64,000 nucleotides of DNA from Phycisphaerae bacterium (GTDB taxonomy: Bacteria; Planctomycetota; Phycisphaerae; SM23-33): contig DRGC01000062.1 of NCBI GenBank assembly GCA_011050235.1, forward strand, positions 1 through 64,000. Reading direction: 5' to 3'. A program made the position numbers and the translations under genes. Below the pieces are notes generated by a model. It was not told the DNA's origin. It saw only the letters and a program-made list of their open reading frames with translations, and made no database searches. This document shows, piece by piece, positions 2,183-58,936 of this stretch (the stretch's first letter is position 1; each line of letters opens with the position of its first letter).

Positions 2183-3679
2183 TCAGAAGGCGGTCTCGTC
2201 GGGCAGGGGCTGGCCGTCGGGCGCGTCGATGCGGGTGATTGTGAATTGGCCCATCGCGGTGAGCAGTTGCAGGAGTTGGTTGGGCCCGTCGCTCTGGCCG
2301 AGCATGATGTGGGCCGTGTCGTGGTGACCCATGGCGGAGTCCAGATGGACCCATCGGCCGGCGACATAGCACCGGACCCACGCGTGGCCGACGAAGATGT
2401 TCTTGCGCTCGCCGAACTGCTCTGCGTAGGCGATGCCCTGGATGACCTGGGTGGGGGCGCCGGAGGCCCGGCACATCGCGGCCAGCAGGACGGCGAACTC
2501 GGTGCAGTCGCCCTGGCGGCTTTCGAGAACCTCGGCGGCGGAGGCGTAGCCGATGGAGAGGTCTGTTTCGAGGATGTAATCGGTGACGAATTTTTCCAGC
2601 CGCTTGAGGGCGATGGCGGCATCGGTGGCGTCGCCGACGGCCTTGCGGGCGAGGGCGACGATTCGCTTGTCGTCCGACTGAACGTATTGGCTGGGCTTGA
2701 GGGCGGCCAGCACCTCGGCGTCATCGCCGTCGTAGCCGATGGCGGCGCCGGCGGGGATGGCCGTCGGCTTGACGGTCACCCGCACGGTCCCATCGTCACC
2801 GGGCGCGACGGTCTGGGTGTCGTCGCCCGGGATGCGGAGCTGCTGTTTGGTCCGTGGGGTCAGGTGGAACGTCAGCGATTTTCTGCGCAGGGCGGGCGAA
2901 AGCTCGACGGGGCTGGCGACCAGGGACTTATTGAGGACGTCGACGACATCGTTGGGGCTGAGGGCGAACTGGCTGTCGCAGGTGACCATCTCGAGCGTCA
3001 TCCCAATCAGCGGTGCGACGGATTTGAGCGCATGGAAGTCGGCGTCGACATAATCCGTCATCGTGATCTCGCCCGTGGGCCCGGCGATCGTTGCGCGGAT
3101 TCGTGTCAGCGTCACCACGCGGCCGAACAGATCCACGGCTTCGGGTTCCATGACGGTGATGTCGAAGGGAACTGCCTGCATCTGGTCTGGCAGAAAGACC
3201 GAGGCCGTAAAACTCGTGCCCGCCTGCAACCCTTTGCGGCGCTGGAGCAGCCGCAGGCCTTCGTTGAGCAGGGCGCCCTCAGGCCAGTCGGCGGAGACCT
3301 GACGCTTCTGATCGCCGTTGGTGACGGTGGCCTGAATCTTGCCGTCGGTGACCACACCTTCAACCATCTGCGGGGCCATCGGCGGCATGCGGGTGACCGA
3401 CTTGAACGCCAACGGCTTGCCGTCCGGCGTTTCGCGGACCTCGACGTTCGCGAAGATGGTGATGGCCGTCTCAAAGCGGTGTAGGGTGAAGCTCATCGTT
3501 TCGGTCGTCGTGACGTGCTGGGCGGTGACGATGCGGGTGCGGATCGTGTGACCGATTTTCTTGCCGTCGAGAAGGATGGCGTAATAGGTGACACGCTTCG
3601 TATCGGTCTGCTGCGCCGATACCAGCCCGGCCGTCAGTGACAGCAGCAGCGATAGACAAATAATCGATCGTCGAAACAT
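2183..3679 (-). CDS. Secreted transglutaminase-like superfamily protein
   Basis: 498 residues. The start is ATG 3679 because GGGAG sits about six bases upstream and it begins a clear signal peptide (MFRRSIICLSLLLSLTAGLVSA), predicting export. The C-terminal third is a transglutaminase-like core: Cys in SRQGDCTEFAVLL, His in FVGHAWVRCY and Asp in WVHLDSAMGH give the expected Cys-His-Asp order of papain-fold enzymes. The N-terminal 300 residues look like a beta-rich periplasmic module with no name I recognise. Bacterial relatives are cysteine proteases, amidases or transferases, so the substrate cannot be stated. It lies between dus and the AddB-like gene on the same strand. Confidence 0.8.
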   Translation of the reverse strand: MFRRSIICLSLLLSLTAGLVSAQQTDTKRVTYYAILLDGKKIGHTIRTRIVTAQHVTTTETMSFTLHRFETAITIFANVEVRETPDGKPLAFKSVTRMPPMAPQMVEGVVTDGKIQATVTNGDQKRQVSADWPEGALLNEGLRLLQRRKGLQAGTSFTASVFLPDQMQAVPFDITVMEPEAVDLFGRVVTLTRIRATIAGPTGEITMTDYVDADFHALKSVAPLIGMTLEMVTCDSQFALSPNDVVDVLNKSLVASPVELSPALRRKSLTFHLTPRTKQQLRIPGDDTQTVAPGDDGTVRVTVKPTAIPAGAAIGYDGDDAEVLAALKPSQYVQSDDKRIVALARKAVGDATDAAIALKRLEKFVTDYILETDLSIGYASAAEVLESRQGDCTEFAVLLAAMCRASGAPTQVIQGIAYAEQFGERKNIFVGHAWVRCYVAGRWVHLDSAMGHHDTAHIMLGQSDGPNQLLQLLTAMGQFTITRIDAPDGQPLPDETAF

Positions 3680-3785
3680 GGCCATCTCCCTGGCGTGAGG
3701 ATCGTTCTGAAGCACCGGCCCGTCATCCTACCGCAATGTCGGAGGCGGCGGCAAGGCCGCAGGCGGCGGCGTCGCGATGGCGGTG

Positions 3786-4855: not shown

Positions 4856-6187
4856 GTGACATCGACTGAACCATGCCGCGTTGCGCTGGTCTCGCTGGGC
4901 TGCCCGAAGAACCTGGTGGACAGCGAGAAGATTGCCGCCCATCTGGCCGAGGCGGGCTGTTTGGTCGGGGCGCCGATGGATGAGGCCGACGTGATCGTTG
5001 TAAACACGTGCGGGTTCCTGTCGGCGGCCCGGGACGAATCGCTGGAGGTGATCACCGAGGCGCTGGCGTACAAACAGAGCGGCCAGGCGCGTCGGGTGGT
5101 CGTCGCGGGCTGTCTGGTCAATCGCGACCGCGAGGCGCTCTTCGCCGCGGCCGAGGGGATCGACGCTGTGGTCGGGGTGAACAATCGTTCCCAGATCGCC
5201 CAAGCCGTCCTGAGCGAAGGCCGGGCGACGCTCATCGGCGCAGCCGGCGATGGCGTCGGCGACGATCGCGGCCGATTTCGGCTGACGCTGCCCCACACGG
5301 CGTACCTGCGCATCTCGGAAGGCTGCTCGCGCCGGTGCACGTTCTGCACGATCCCGGCCATTCGCGGGCCCTTCCGGTCGAAGCCGCCCCAGGATGTGCT
5401 CGCCGAGGCCCGGGAATTGGCAGCTAGTGGGGCGATCGAGTTGAACATAATCGGCCAGGACACGACGAACTACGGGAGCGATCTGGCCGGCGAGACGAAT
5501 CTGGCCCGGTTGCTGCGAGAGATGGACGGGATCGACGGCGTGGCGTGGATTCGCCTGCTGTACGCCTACCCGATGGGTTTTTCGGACGAGCTGGTGGACG
5601 TGCTGGCCGAGGCTGAGCACGTGGCGCCGTACGTGGACATCCCGCTGCAGCATATTGCCGATGGGATTCTCAAGCGCATGGGACGCGGCGTCCGGCGAGG
5701 CGGGATCGAAACGCTGCTGGAGACACTTCGGCGGCGTGTGGAGGGCATGACGATCCGCACGACGTTCATTGTGGGGTTCCCGGGCGAAGGGGAGGGGGAG
5801 TTCGAGGAACTGCTGACCTTCGTGGAGACGTTTCGTTTCGATGCGGTCGGTGTGTTTGAGTACTCGCCGGAAGAGGGCACGGCGGCTGTGGGTCTGGACG
5901 GCGCGGTGGCGGATGAGATCAAGGCCGAGCGGGCGCAGCGGCTGATGTTGACGCAGCAGGCGATCGCCTTCGAGGCTAACGCTGCTGCGGTGGGCCGGCG
6001 GATTGACGTGCTGGTAGACGGCGAGGATAATAGCGGGCCGTGTATTGCGCGACACATCGGTCAGGCGCCTGAGATCGACAGTGTTTGCCTGCTGACCGAG
6101 GCGCGTCCGCCCGGTCAGATCACAAGCGGCGAGGTGGTCGACTGGTTGGATTACGATCTGGTCGTCCGGCCTGACGTCGAAGACTAA
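4856..6187 (+). CDS. rimO: Ribosomal protein S12 methylthiotransferase RimO
   Basis: 443 residues from GTG 4856. The N-terminal methylthiotransferase domain begins VSLGCPKNLVDSE, with further cluster cysteines in VNTCGFL and AGCLVNRD. The radical-SAM domain carries the CxxxCxxC motif in SEGCSRRCTFCTIP. A C-terminal TRAM-type domain (about residues 375-440) completes the architecture. The opening SLGCPKNLVD and GPFRSKP contexts are those of RimO rather than the tRNA enzyme MiaB. RimO adds a beta-methylthio group to an aspartate of S12. The gene leads a plus-strand run with pgsA and pgpA. Confidence 0.93.
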   Translation: MTSTEPCRVALVSLGCPKNLVDSEKIAAHLAEAGCLVGAPMDEADVIVVNTCGFLSAARDESLEVITEALAYKQSGQARRVVVAGCLVNRDREALFAAAEGIDAVVGVNNRSQIAQAVLSEGRATLIGAAGDGVGDDRGRFRLTLPHTAYLRISEGCSRRCTFCTIPAIRGPFRSKPPQDVLAEARELAASGAIELNIIGQDTTNYGSDLAGETNLARLLREMDGIDGVAWIRLLYAYPMGFSDELVDVLAEAEHVAPYVDIPLQHIADGILKRMGRGVRRGGIETLLETLRRRVEGMTIRTTFIVGFPGEGEGEFEELLTFVETFRFDAVGVFEYSPEEGTAAVGLDGAVADEIKAERAQRLMLTQQAIAFEANAAAVGRRIDVLVDGEDNSGPCIARHIGQAPEIDSVCLLTEARPPGQITSGEVVDWLDYDLVVRPDVED

Positions 6188-6233
6188 TCACACCCTCGGC
6201 GGCAGCGCGCCGGGGAGCGGAATCTGCTCTGCA

Positions 6234-6884
6234 ATGAACTGGAAACTACCCAACATATTGACGGCGTCGCGGCTGCCGCTGGCGGCGGCATTTTTCGTTT
6301 TCGTCGGCCTGTACTCGTCCGATGCGCCGGAGATGAACCGGATCTGGGTGACGACGGCGTTCGTGATCTTCGTCATTGCCGGGATCACCGACTTTCTGGA
6401 CGGGTTCCTGGCCAGACGGATGAAGATCATCAGCGCCTTCGGGCGGATCGTCGACCCGTTCGTGGACAAAGTGCTTATTGTGGGGTCGTTCGTCATGCTG
6501 GCCGGGTCGAACTACATGCTGGACGGCTCGGGCGCGTATAGCGATTTCGAGCGGGGCCTGCCGACGTGGCTGACGGGCGGGATGGCGTCGGCGGTGCAGC
6601 CCTGGATGGTCGTGGTGGTGATGGCGCGCGAGTTCATCATCTCGGCTGTCCGCGGGTACAGCGAGTCGCAGGGGATCAAGTTCCCGGCGACGTACGCGGG
6701 CAAGATCAAACTGTTCGTCCAGGTGGTCGCCATCGGGACGGTCCTGATTCAGGTGACGTTCGTGAGAAACGCCGAATGGGCGGTCTTGTTGAAGATCGCC
6801 GTGATCTGGCTGACGGTGCTGGTGACGGTTGTCAGCGGCCTGACCTATGTGGGCCGGGCGCGCGGATTGCTGGTGGCCGATTAG
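6234..6884 (+). CDS. pgsA: CDP-diacylglycerol-glycerol-3-phosphate 3-phosphatidyltransferase
   Basis: 216 residues, an integral membrane CDP-alcohol phosphatidyltransferase. The signature DG-x2-AR-x8-G-x3-D-x3-D is complete in DFLDGFLARRMKIISAFG followed by RIVDPFVDK (about residues 58-85). Several hydrophobic helices follow. It makes phosphatidylglycerol phosphate, the first committed step of phosphatidylglycerol synthesis. The next gene, pgpA, encodes the phosphatase for the following step, which supports the assignment over other CDP-alcohol transferases. Confidence 0.9.
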   Translation: MNWKLPNILTASRLPLAAAFFVFVGLYSSDAPEMNRIWVTTAFVIFVIAGITDFLDGFLARRMKIISAFGRIVDPFVDKVLIVGSFVMLAGSNYMLDGSGAYSDFERGLPTWLTGGMASAVQPWMVVVVMAREFIISAVRGYSESQGIKFPATYAGKIKLFVQVVAIGTVLIQVTFVRNAEWAVLLKIAVIWLTVLVTVVSGLTYVGRARGLLVAD

Positions 6885-6904: not shown

Positions 6905-7438
6905 ATGAAACTCCTCGGAAAGATCATGGCCAGCGGGTTGGGGACCGGCTACTTGCCGGTTGCGCCAGGGACGTGGGGGTCGGCGGCGGTGTTGGCCGTC
7001 TATTTGATGGTGGCCTGGGCCAGGGGCGGCGAGCGGCTCGCCAGTGGGGGCGAGCGGCTGGCGTTGGACCTGACCGTCACGATGGGGGCCGTGGCGGCGC
7101 TATCGGGGGTGTGGTGCGTTCTGCTGGGCGATTTTGTCGAACGGGTCTGGGGCGGCGAGGATCCGGGCAAGTGCACGCTGGACGAATGGGCGGGTCAGGC
7201 GGTGGCGCTGCTGTGGCTGCCGCTGCCGGCGACGGCTGGCGAGTTCACGGGCGTGGTGATCGTTGGGGTCTCGGCGTTCCTGGCCTTTCGAGTGTTCGAT
7301 ATTCTCAAGCCCCCGCCCGCTCGCTGGGCGGAGAAATTGCCGAGCGGCTGGGGGGTGCTGGCAGACGATCTGGTCGCCGGCGTGTACGCCAACGCGATCG
7401 TTCGCCTGGGGGTATTGGCCTTCTTCCCGGCCGGCTAG
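6905..7438 (+). CDS. pgpA: Phosphatidylglycerophosphatase A
   Basis: 177 residues from ATG 6905, with GGCGGGA just upstream. PgpA-family motifs are present: GTGYLPVAPGTWGSA at the N-terminus, the metal-binding DEWAGQ in the middle and VFDILKPPPARW followed by GVLADDLVAG near the end. These match the acidic clusters that coordinate Mg2+ in PgpA. It removes the phosphate from phosphatidylglycerol phosphate. It starts 20 bp after pgsA, so the two consecutive steps are probably co-transcribed. A short insertion with a repeated GGERLA (about residues 41-53) is unusual for the family. The last bases overlap the end of the convergent membrane gene. Confidence 0.9.
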   Translation: MKLLGKIMASGLGTGYLPVAPGTWGSAAVLAVYLMVAWARGGERLASGGERLALDLTVTMGAVAALSGVWCVLLGDFVERVWGGEDPGKCTLDEWAGQAVALLWLPLPATAGEFTGVVIVGVSAFLAFRVFDILKPPPARWAEKLPSGWGVLADDLVAGVYANAIVRLGVLAFFPAG

Positions 7439-10089
7439 TGGGCAAGGGAGGCGGATGGGGAGGGCTCGGGGACGATGTTCTCGCAGATCAAGGCGCCGAC
7501 GGTGGCCAGGATGCCGAACGTGAAGAGTCGCCATACGGTCGCCGCCACGGCCGGCTTAACGAGCGTCGACATGTCGACGGCCTGGTCGGCGCCGGCCTGC
7601 AGGTGAGCGAGAAAGAATACATACGCGCCGCCGGCCAACAATCCGGCCAGCAGGCCGGTGAAGGCGCCCAGGACCACACGCCGGGCGGGAGGGGCGCCGC
7701 CGGCCCATCTGGCCGTGACCCAGCCGGCTATCAGGGGGACGACTAGGGTCGCATACCAGATGTGGCGCTGAGCGGGGACAAAGCCCTGTCGGACGTACAC
7801 CCACGAGATGGCGGCGTAGATCGCGCCGGCTGCCAGTGCGATCGGAACAAAATGCCAGTGGCGCTGGGGGAGGGCCTTTCGCTGCTTCACCCGCACGCGG
7901 ATGCGACGGCGCAGCGTCAGGGAATAGTTGAAGAACAGATCGAACACACCGTGCTCCAACAGCGCCCCGTGTTCGCCGAAGACGGGGACCATGCGGGCCG
8001 CGCCCGTCGCCCAGTGGCCGGCCATGAACCGCGACAGGACGGGGTATCGATTGGCCATTTGGATCGGAAACGCCAGGTATCCGATGTATTTGAAGAACGC
8101 CAGGAACACGGCGATGTTGTAGTCCTTGAAGTTTCGCTCGCGGATCACCAGGTACAGCACATACAGGCCGCGGACAAGCGACCCGGGGGAAATCGGAACG
8201 ACTTGGACGGTGGCAATGAAGGCCAACGCGATACCCCAGACCTTCCAGAAGTCATACCAGAAGTGCAGGCCCATTGACCAGGAGTAGATCATCGCCGCGA
8301 TCAAGGCGACGACCTGGGAGATCGGCAAGGTGCAGACGTGAACGGCCAGCGCCTTGAGATACTTCTGCACGAACGGGTCGGGAATGTGCTTGTCAATCTG
8401 GTCGGCCTCATCGTCGGAGATGATTCTTCGCCGTAGGCCCTCGGCCAGCATCTCTCGCATCCACGTTTCGCGGAGGTCGGCGTTGAGCACCAGTTTGACC
8501 GGGCGGATGAGGATGAAGTGCAGGACGCCCAGGACATATCGGCCGTCGGTGAGGAATCGGTGGAGGCCCGCCGGCAGGACGGATAGCGGCCGATGAATCA
8601 GATACAGCCACACGTGGCGCTTGACGCGCTCTGTGTGCCGCTCGTCCAGCCGACCCGCGCGATGCCAGCCGATCAGCGCCTCGTATACGTGCGCGCGGAA
8701 CGCCTTCCGCAGATAGAGGCCCTGTGTGACGATTCGGCCGTAGTGATGCCGCACGTCGGCCCGGCCCATCAGTGCGCGAAGTAGCCGAACGACAGCCGGC
8801 CCGACGGTCACCAGGGCCACCCCCGCAATACCCTCAGCCGCTGTGATGCGCCACCGGAAAAGGCAGCTCACCAGCACGACCAGGCCGGCGATCAGCGATG
8901 CGGGGGCAAGCGTCCCCAGCAGGCCAAACAGCGCCGCGGCGAAACGGTTCTTGTGGAGGACATCGGCGGTCGGTTCGTCGATGACATTGCGGATTCGCCA
9001 ACTGTCGACGGCGCCGGCCAGGATCGTTCCCCACAGGCGGGGGCTATACGCCAGGCGCGGGAAGTTGTGCGTGATATCGATCTGGCTGTCTCGGTAGCGT
9101 CGCTCGGCCGTCTCAAGCTCGGCGACGACATCGGCCATGTCGCTGAAGTGTTCGTGATGAGCTTCGATGAAGCCCTTGAGTTTGGTCAGGTTGCCGCGGT
9201 CGAACTGGACCAGACTGCCGCGGCCGATGCCTTTGGCGATCAACCACACGTCGGCTGGGCTCATCGGCAGAAACGGCAGCAGCGCCAATCCGGCGCGAAA
9301 ATCCACCGCCGTCAGGCCGGCCGCCGGATCGTCGCCGCCATCGTGTCGTTTGAGACAGTTGGGCTGGCTCTTGCAGGTCCACCATTCGTATTGGCGGGCC
9401 AGTTCGGGCGCTCCCATCTCGTGAAGCAGGTCGACCACGTCGGCCATGAACTGCCGCTTGGCCAGGTACTCGGGCGAGCCAAACCCGTCGCGGGGCTGGC
9501 CGACCTTCCAATGGCGGCGGCGCCCGAAATGGTCGTCCGTCTCGAACCGCCAGACGCGACCGTCGATCCACTCGCTGATTTCGCCGCAACTGCCCAGGGC
9601 CGAATCGACGAAGGTCGCGTGGATTTCGGTCACCGCCCGCTCAGATCCGAGCTTCAACCTGGCCGCCCGACGAATCAGCGTCTGCCACAGCGCCCCGGCC
9701 CGTGCGGCGGCGGGGTTGGACTGCAGCGAGAAGGGGGCCTGGAAGCCGACCGCATAGAGCGCATCGCGGAATCGCGCGGAACTTGCCCGCGGGGGCAGGA
9801 GAATCTTCAGGGCGTAACAGTCCCCAACGGCCAGGCCGGAGATGGGCCCTTCGGGGGCGTCGAGTTCGAGCAATTTGACGCGGTAGACCTGCCCCGCGTA
9901 GCCGCCGCCGACGAACCGTTCGATCCGGACCCGCATCCGCGCGGGCCGGGCCGGGGCGACGCCGGTGATATCAAACGTCAATTCCCGCCCGGCCTCATAG
10001 CGGCCGATCCGCATGGGGCGGACGATGCCCGTCTGGCCGAAGGCGGCGGTCAGATCGGCGACGGTCTGCGGAGAATATTCGACGGCCAT
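7435..10089 (-). CDS. Divergent kinase-like domain fused to a polytopic membrane protein
   Basis: 884 residues from ATG 10089, chosen because it opens the first convincing protein sequence; upstream codons are low complexity. I recognise no named family. The N-terminal 280 residues carry kinase-like landmarks in order: a glycine loop (VGGGYAGQVYRVK, 60-72), a candidate ATP-binding lysine in YALKIL (K95), Asn in QPNCLKR (N244) and Asp in VDFRAG (D263), resembling a catalytic loop and degenerate DFG. No HRD-type aspartate is obvious. From about residue 390 onward there are roughly ten hydrophobic segments separated by basic loops. The gene stands alone between pgpA (convergent) and carB (divergent). 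A membrane-tethered or inactive kinase-like protein is inferred; the substrate is unknown. Confidence 0.6.
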   Translation of the reverse strand: MAVEYSPQTVADLTAAFGQTGIVRPMRIGRYEAGRELTFDITGVAPARPARMRVRIERFVGGGYAGQVYRVKLLELDAPEGPISGLAVGDCYALKILLPPRASSARFRDALYAVGFQAPFSLQSNPAAARAGALWQTLIRRAARLKLGSERAVTEIHATFVDSALGSCGEISEWIDGRVWRFETDDHFGRRRHWKVGQPRDGFGSPEYLAKRQFMADVVDLLHEMGAPELARQYEWWTCKSQPNCLKRHDGGDDPAAGLTAVDFRAGLALLPFLPMSPADVWLIAKGIGRGSLVQFDRGNLTKLKGFIEAHHEHFSDMADVVAELETAERRYRDSQIDITHNFPRLAYSPRLWGTILAGAVDSWRIRNVIDEPTADVLHKNRFAAALFGLLGTLAPASLIAGLVVLVSCLFRWRITAAEGIAGVALVTVGPAVVRLLRALMGRADVRHHYGRIVTQGLYLRKAFRAHVYEALIGWHRAGRLDERHTERVKRHVWLYLIHRPLSVLPAGLHRFLTDGRYVLGVLHFILIRPVKLVLNADLRETWMREMLAEGLRRRIISDDEADQIDKHIPDPFVQKYLKALAVHVCTLPISQVVALIAAMIYSWSMGLHFWYDFWKVWGIALAFIATVQVVPISPGSLVRGLYVLYLVIRERNFKDYNIAVFLAFFKYIGYLAFPIQMANRYPVLSRFMAGHWATGAARMVPVFGEHGALLEHGVFDLFFNYSLTLRRRIRVRVKQRKALPQRHWHFVPIALAAGAIYAAISWVYVRQGFVPAQRHIWYATLVVPLIAGWVTARWAGGAPPARRVVLGAFTGLLAGLLAGGAYVFFLAHLQAGADQAVDMSTLVKPAVAATVWRLFTFGILATVGALICENIVPEPSPSASLAH

Positions 10090-10282: not shown

Positions 10283-13816
<3,534 letters not shown>

Positions 13817-58494: not shown

Positions 58495-58849
58495 GGGGGC
58501 GAACTGGATTCGACCGGGCGAGTTGAGGCGTCGGTGGCGTGCCCAGGTTCCAAGGAGGCCTGGTAAAACACCTTGGGTAACTTTTTACTTGCCAACACTG
58601 ATTTGGCACTGGCTGCTTAATCTTAAGTAGCCCGCCTGCGGCTTCTTGCCCGTGAGGGGCCGCAAGGCGACGAAAAGCGGGCTTGCTGGTCGGGAGTGGT
58701 GCGGTTACCCGGCCGGGACTTTGGTCGCACTGGCTGAGCCTGGACCGTGTCGCTGCGGGCCTTGCTCGGCGAGATTAAACCAGCGACTATGCACGTAGAG
58801 GCCGGCGCTGAAACGTCACGGGACGCGGGTTCGATTCCCGCCGCCTCCA
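58495..58849 (+). ncRNA. ssrA: Transfer-messenger RNA (tmRNA)
   Basis: The 5' GGGGGCGAACTGGATTCGAC and 3' GGGTTCGATTCCCGCCGCC pair into the tRNA-like domain, with acceptor arms GGGGGCG and CGCCTCC (one G-U) and discriminator A at 58849. Its 355-nt length is standard. The tag frame is 58591-58620: Ala-Asn-Thr-Asp-Leu-Ala-Leu-Ala-Ala then TAA. The resume codon is placed at GCC 58591 because TTACTT upstream resembles the usual TTAGTC context; the ALAA end is certain from the sequence. CCA is not encoded. SmpB is encoded at 55659-56144. Confidence 0.95.
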
Positions 58850-58936
58850 CTCGATGCGTCCAAGCGGCTCCTCCGGAGCCGTTTGGACTTACTCGTGGCA
58901 AGCCATCTGGCTTGACAGGAGTAACCGCATCGAGTG
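58848..58936. repeat. Nested inverted-repeat (three-way junction) element abutting ssrA
   Basis: An outer perfect 11-bp pair, CACTCGATGCG (58848-58858) and CGCATCGAGTG (58926-58936), encloses two hairpins: a 14-bp stem with a 3-base loop at 58858-58888 (13 of 14 paired) and TTACTC/GAGTAA around CAAGCC/GGCTTG at 58889-58924. The left arm overlaps the last two bases of tmRNA. The first inner hairpin could also act as the ssrA terminator. A GIY-YIG nuclease gene follows. Confidence 0.8.

Follow-up and report, generated by a model that had tools for sequence, protein, structure and literature searches.

A membrane protein with a kinase-like domain as a candidate replacement for BacA/UppP in undecaprenyl carrier recycling

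A contig of a Phycisphaerae bacterium (DRGC01000062.1; the window is the whole stretch of 64,000 nucleotides analyzed here) encodes a protein in which a kinase-like domain is followed by a large membrane region. This raises the question which function such a combination serves and whether it belongs to a known family. The open reading frame is intact, starts with an ATG at 10089 and ends with a stop codon at 7435-7437. The features of the gene, the protein and the neighbouring genes are listed here.

7435..10089 (-): kinase-fold/membrane protein, 884 aa; homologues in 88/397 class genomes and at 324 loci of named genomes
9085..10008 (-): kinase-like domain, residues 28-335 (AlphaFold2 model and structural matches to protein kinases)
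9877..9915 (-): Gly-rich loop FVGGGYAGQVYRV, residues 59-71; G61-G63 and A65-Y69 invariant in 118 homologues
9805..9807 (-): K95, beta-3 lysine; invariant in 118 homologues
9349..9405 (-): catalytic-loop equivalent ELARQYEWWTCKSQPNCLK, residues 229-247; E229, R232-Y234, W236 and K240-N244 invariant
9295..9303 (-): DFR, the DFG equivalent, residues 263-265; D263 in 118/118, R265 in 116/118, G in 2/118
7879..8946 (-): conserved membrane core, residues 382-737 (hydropathy and AlphaFold2); H449, R480, R540, P632, S637, R640 and Q677 invariant
8167..8196 (-): PISPGSLVRG motif, residues 632-641 (homologue alignment)
7951..7986 (-): PVFGEHGALLEH motif, residues 702-713; E706 and E712 in 117/118
7474..7872 (-): C-terminal four-helix bundle, residues 740-872, variable; two relatives have a PgpA domain instead
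6905..7438 (+): pgpA, phosphatidylglycerophosphatase A (PF04608, E=1.9e-34); convergent, 4-base overlap with the stop of the kinase-fold gene
6234..6884 (+): pgsA, CDP-alcohol phosphatidyltransferase (PF01066, E=5.1e-32); just upstream of pgpA
start at 10283: carB, named from its sequence; divergent from the kinase-fold gene

The neighbourhood also contains a gene for a transglutaminase-like protein (PF01841) at 2183-3715 (-), and a tmRNA gene with the tag peptide ANTDLALAA is located at 58495-58852 (+).

The kinase-like domain and the membrane part

In the full-length AlphaFold2 model (mean pLDDT 82.8) residues about 28-300 are predicted to adopt a bilobal protein-kinase fold. The structural matches listed for the model are protein kinases, with HIPK2 at the top (Z 11.1, over about 28-302), and alpha-kinases are among them (Z about 9.9). 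The Gly-rich loop, K95 in YALKIL, N244 in QPNCLKR and D263 in VDFRAG were found where the earlier note had placed them. The Gly-rich loop, the beta-3 Lys, the Mg-binding Asn and the DFG Asp of a protein-kinase-like fold are thus present, and the HRD catalytic Asp is not. The position of the latter, five before N244, is C239 in the window protein and C, W, A or L across the alignment of 118 homologues; the catalytic Asp is therefore absent, as had been noted before.

K95, N244 and D263 were identical in all of the first 25 homologues, then in 107/107 and finally in 118/118, divergent ones included. Some loci were collected via patterns in the Gly-rich loop and in E[FL]ARQYEW, so that the invariance of the loop is partly selected for; this retrieval did not touch K95, N244 and D263. 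Further residues of the domain are invariant in the 118 homologues (R178, E229, R232, Q233, Y234, W236, K240, S241, Q242, P243, D280, Q295 and D297), and in the family alignment the presumed alpha-C helix has no conserved acidic position. Judged from the aligned homologues, the motif conservation of the protein is not chance. The kinase reading of the earlier note therefore stands: the structure predicted for residues 40-290 has a kinase fold rather than lacking one, and all three landmarks are kept rather than varying freely.

Assignment to a known family failed. None of the Pfam and NCBIfam models scored above chance for the window protein and 24 relatives, and sequence searches against PDB chains (single sequence and profiles) returned nothing meaningful for the 884-aa protein. 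The suggestion of an ABC1-like protein was not borne out, as profile comparison with ABC1/UbiB (PF03109) is insignificant (hhalign probability 1%) and none of the 25 members has a Pfam match to it. Likewise, kinship with protein kinases (PF00069) was rejected after an insignificant hhalign comparison and no Pfam match in the 25 members. A SelO-type AMPylase was discarded because there is no Pfam match to the SelO family and the likeness is one of residue pattern only. A PAP2 domain (PF01569) was not found in the protein by Pfam (25 members), and PADLOC gave no match that would indicate an origin in a defence system.

The membrane part was predicted by hydropathy and the AlphaFold2 model to have 8-10 helices, which makes the earlier estimate of about ten a fair one; a helix hairpin at about 398-432 is missing outside the window's own lineage. 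In addition to the residues listed above, P635-S637, P675 and M678 are invariant in the 118 homologues and N721 is kept in 117/118. Modelled alone with 86 sequences, the membrane part reaches a pLDDT of 89.7. In the AlphaFold2 model the invariant stretches 265-276 and 696-711 have low confidence, the second one with pLDDT <50 and overlapping the conserved PVFGEHGALLEH motif; together they may form an active-site interface. No significant PDB match was found for the membrane domain (residues 336-884; best Foldseek E 1.8), and the best Z, 8.5 to a Mce-complex subunit, covers the variable C-terminal bundle only. Comparison of the membrane part with BacA and PgpA likewise gave no sign of remote homology (hhalign probability versus BacA 1.4%). 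There is strong support for a kinase-type nucleotide site that is invariant and structurally intact and that is linked to a conserved membrane core.

Two divergent homologues (L142:3458-7147 and L143:3135-6809) are 1225-1230 aa long, with about 500 extra C-terminal residues that comprise more membrane helices and a soluble part without Pfam match.

Exchange with BacA/UppP

BacA/UppP is the undecaprenyl-pyrophosphate phosphatase that converts undecaprenyl pyrophosphate (C55-PP) to undecaprenyl phosphate (C55-P). It recycles the lipid carrier for bacterial cell-wall building, which is an essential step, and this conversion feeds every lipid-linked cell-envelope pathway.

In 53 of the 72 class genomes in which both positions are known, pgpA is located at most 6 kb from the kinase-fold gene: 35 times directly upstream on the same strand, 16 times downstream in the convergent arrangement of the window, and twice as a true fusion. 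In the fusions (G047 and G076) the kinase domain and conserved membrane core are followed by an intact PgpA domain (PF04608 E=1.8e-33 and 3.9e-28), which takes the place of the variable C-terminal helices. The two PgpA-fused homologues (L140:2951-5590 and L141:2981-5569) read DFG instead of DFR (R265 to G). In class relatives without the kinase-fold gene, PgpA is often fused to BacA/UppP, which led us to test the co-occurrence with BacA. These PgpA-BacA fusions are common in the class (L158:6412-7854, L161:6967-8331, L157:7508-8845, L163:7795-9159) and carry two lipid-phosphate phosphatases per chain.

Altogether, 87 of the 397 class genomes contain only the kinase-fold gene, 286 only bacA, one both and 23 neither (Fisher p = 1e-64, in a test that ignores relatedness). 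The sole genome with both has a mere fragment of the kinase-fold gene (E=1.7e-4). Genomes of both kinds are found within at least nine families (f1, f2, f10, f12, f15, f17, f106, f107 and f108) and within several single genera (e.g. g282, g296, g346 and g376), and therefore many independent exchanges are needed. Of 42 further carriers behind named loci, mostly from other phyla and counted as carriers only, 39 are without BacA; the remaining three (G682, G683 and G705, from other phyla) have both genes, hence coexistence is possible.

A PAP2 match was found in 25/40 carriers of the kinase-fold gene and in 26/40 bacA genomes (p=1). PAP2 as compensation for the loss of BacA was therefore rejected, since carriers and non-carriers do not differ. 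Neither BacA nor a PAP2 match was found in 15 of the 40 sampled carriers, among which are several genomes of 99% completeness and that of the window; if they use C55-P they need another enzyme, for which the kinase-fold protein is a candidate. UppS and MraY motifs were looked for in half of the window genome (2.0 of 4.0 Mb) and none was seen, which is uninformative at this coverage.

The exchange is seen in place in one operon, pgpA-X-unk-unk-purA-uppS-cdsA (unk, unknown gene), in which position X is taken either by a BacA domain that is fused to PgpA (L157, L158, L161) or by the kinase-fold gene (L159, L160, L164; domains by Pfam). In genomes G634 and G566 it encodes PgpA-BacA as one protein, followed by two unknown genes, purA, uppS, cdsA and two more genes; the start of this order is also seen in G601. 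G379 and G445 have pgpA and then the kinase-fold gene amid these same neighbours, and in G391 they follow the kinase-fold gene. One genus holds G601, G634, G379 and G391. As far as gene order can tell, this is the pattern expected when an unrelated protein takes over a function. The comparison of gene content and synteny strongly supports that the kinase-fold gene stands in for BacA, both in the genome and in the operon slot.

In many carriers uppS is located in an operon with the kinase-fold gene. The two conserved genes between pgpA/X and purA are present in both operon versions (L158:5097-5555 and 5590-6339), with homologues in L157, L159, L160, L161 and L164; the longer one has no Pfam match.

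Among the best 80 of the 324 loci about 12 phylum labels are represented (labels are those in the submitters' titles), including Planctomycetota, Desulfobacterota/Thermodesulfobacteriota, Aminicenantes, Latescibacterota, Zixibacteria, Cloacimonadota, Armatimonadota, Fibrobacterota and Deferribacterota. The genomes compared are mostly MAGs. In the tree of these 80 loci Planctomycetota appear in at least three separate places, and transfer of the gene between phyla is therefore likely. A pgpA gene is present at 25 of 80 loci and pgsA at 8. Outside Planctomycetota, manB/manC, aspS and similar neighbours recur within lineages with no clear functional link, and cell-wall lipid genes were not seen beside the kinase-fold gene.

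Possible functions

We consider it reasonably likely that the kinase-fold protein is a non-orthologous BacA/UppP replacement that turns C55-PP into C55-P, whereby the C55-PP phosphatase chemistry is what we infer from the genomic context. The N-terminal kinase-like domain would be cytoplasmic and appears suited to ATP/ADP and Mg. Invariant Arg/His/Glu residues of the membrane core would bind the polyprenyl diphosphate, whose terminal phosphate would be cleaved off or transferred on the inner side of the membrane. That the HRD base is lost would make chemical sense if the enzyme acted on a phosphate and not on a hydroxyl. C55-PP is known to serve as phosphoryl donor in the case of LpxT (PMC2229476), which agrees with this reading. 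The phosphate might be passed to water or to ADP; alternatively, ATP might merely power flipping or extraction of the lipid, or its delivery to PgpA. The phosphatase role has to be weighed against the fold of the domain, which is that of a kinase and not of a phosphatase, and against the location of the ATP site, which must be cytoplasmic, whereas all C55-PP phosphatases identified in E. coli are reported to work at the outer face (PMC4641660). The three carriers with both genes and the 23 of 397 genomes with neither gene also count against it. A search of open-licence papers gave none that connects a kinase fold to the processing of C55-PP, and the kinase-fold membrane protein is previously undescribed.

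PgpA is a phosphatase with a presumed site of action on the cytoplasmic side. The membrane core might be an ATP-gated, UbiB-like flippase or extractor of C55-PP, with the neighbouring PgpA dephosphorylating the lipid and the pair replacing BacA. The tight linkage and fusion to pgpA would agree with such a division of labour, as would an ATP site that is invariant while the catalytic Asp is missing, and with HupA one phosphatase serves both PGP and C55-PP (PMC6748449). However, HupA is a PAP2 protein and not a PgpA, most BacA genomes also have PgpA, and BacA, which requires no helper, shows an equal degree of linkage and fusion to PgpA; we regard this division as somewhat unlikely. It is unlikely, too, that the protein acts as a phosphotransferase in the membrane, passing the terminal C55-PP phosphate to ADP at the cytoplasmic face and so keeping the anhydride bond as ATP. 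The kinase fold would then work in reverse without requiring a catalytic base and carrier recycling would save energy.

A role in phosphatidylglycerol metabolism, where the protein would work alongside PgsA and PgpA as a regulator, a transferase or a lipid kinase, would make the BacA pattern an indirect one. It is suggested by the adjacency of pgsA and pgpA in the window, by their presence among the 80 loci and by the PgpA fusion, yet it leaves both the near-perfect absence of BacA across phyla and the in-place exchange with the BacA domain unexplained, and we therefore think it improbable. Still more improbable is a catalytically dead membrane-bound pseudokinase or an ordinary signalling protein kinase. 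The kinase fold and the missing HRD Asp, on which the earlier suggestion of a membrane-bound pseudokinase was based, do hold; that suggestion misses, however, the BacA replacement indicated by the comparative evidence. Every other nucleotide ligand is invariant, the kinase-like domain is 53-67% identical across phyla, and synteny and BacA exclusion indicate a housekeeping lipid step.

Comparison with known enzymes and significance

Like BacA/UppP (PF02673), the kinase-fold protein is an integral membrane protein encoded beside or fused to PgpA and upstream of uppS-cdsA, and the two are mutually exclusive. Unlike BacA/UppP it has a kinase fold, no sequence similarity (no Pfam match; hhalign probability 1.4%) and no BacA motifs; BacA/UppP itself has about 270 aa and no nucleotide-binding domain. 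The active site of BacA faces the periplasm (PMC4641660), whereas the ATP/ADP site of the kinase-fold protein is predicted to be cytoplasmic. The shared slot and the exclusion suggest that the protein works in BacA's place without being a BacA itself. With the PAP2-type enzymes PgpB, YbjG, LpxT and HupA it shares the supposed substrate C55-PP, but it has no PAP2 domain and the distributions are unrelated.

The atypical kinases ABC1/UbiB/COQ8 also combine a kinase fold with membrane helices and a connection to lipids; here, in contrast, the profile match is not significant, the membrane domain is far larger and the HRD Asp is absent. SelO pseudokinases similarly keep the Gly loop, Lys, Asn and DFG Asp and have lost the HRD Asp (PMC3281104), but they are soluble and retain the alpha-C Glu, for which the kinase-fold family alignment shows no such residue. 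The fold of residues about 28-302 resembles the Ser/Thr kinases PknB, GSK3, HIPK2 and Mps1 (Z up to 11); unlike in these kinases HRD is missing, DFR replaces DFG and PF00069 does not match, and identity over the match is only 12-19%.

Only two enzyme families have been described for the conversion of C55-PP to C55-P, BacA and PAP2 (PMC6748449). Going by its exchange with BacA in genome after genome, the kinase-fold protein is probably a third, unrelated route for this carrier-recycling step. If this is true, a nucleotide-binding C55-PP enzyme unrelated to the other two would be present under about a dozen phylum labels and would have been swapped with BacA in place. It would explain carrier recycling in many bacteria without BacA and PAP2, would locate the C55-PP step at the cytoplasmic face for the first time, and the kinase fold would gain a role in the recycling of cell-wall lipids.
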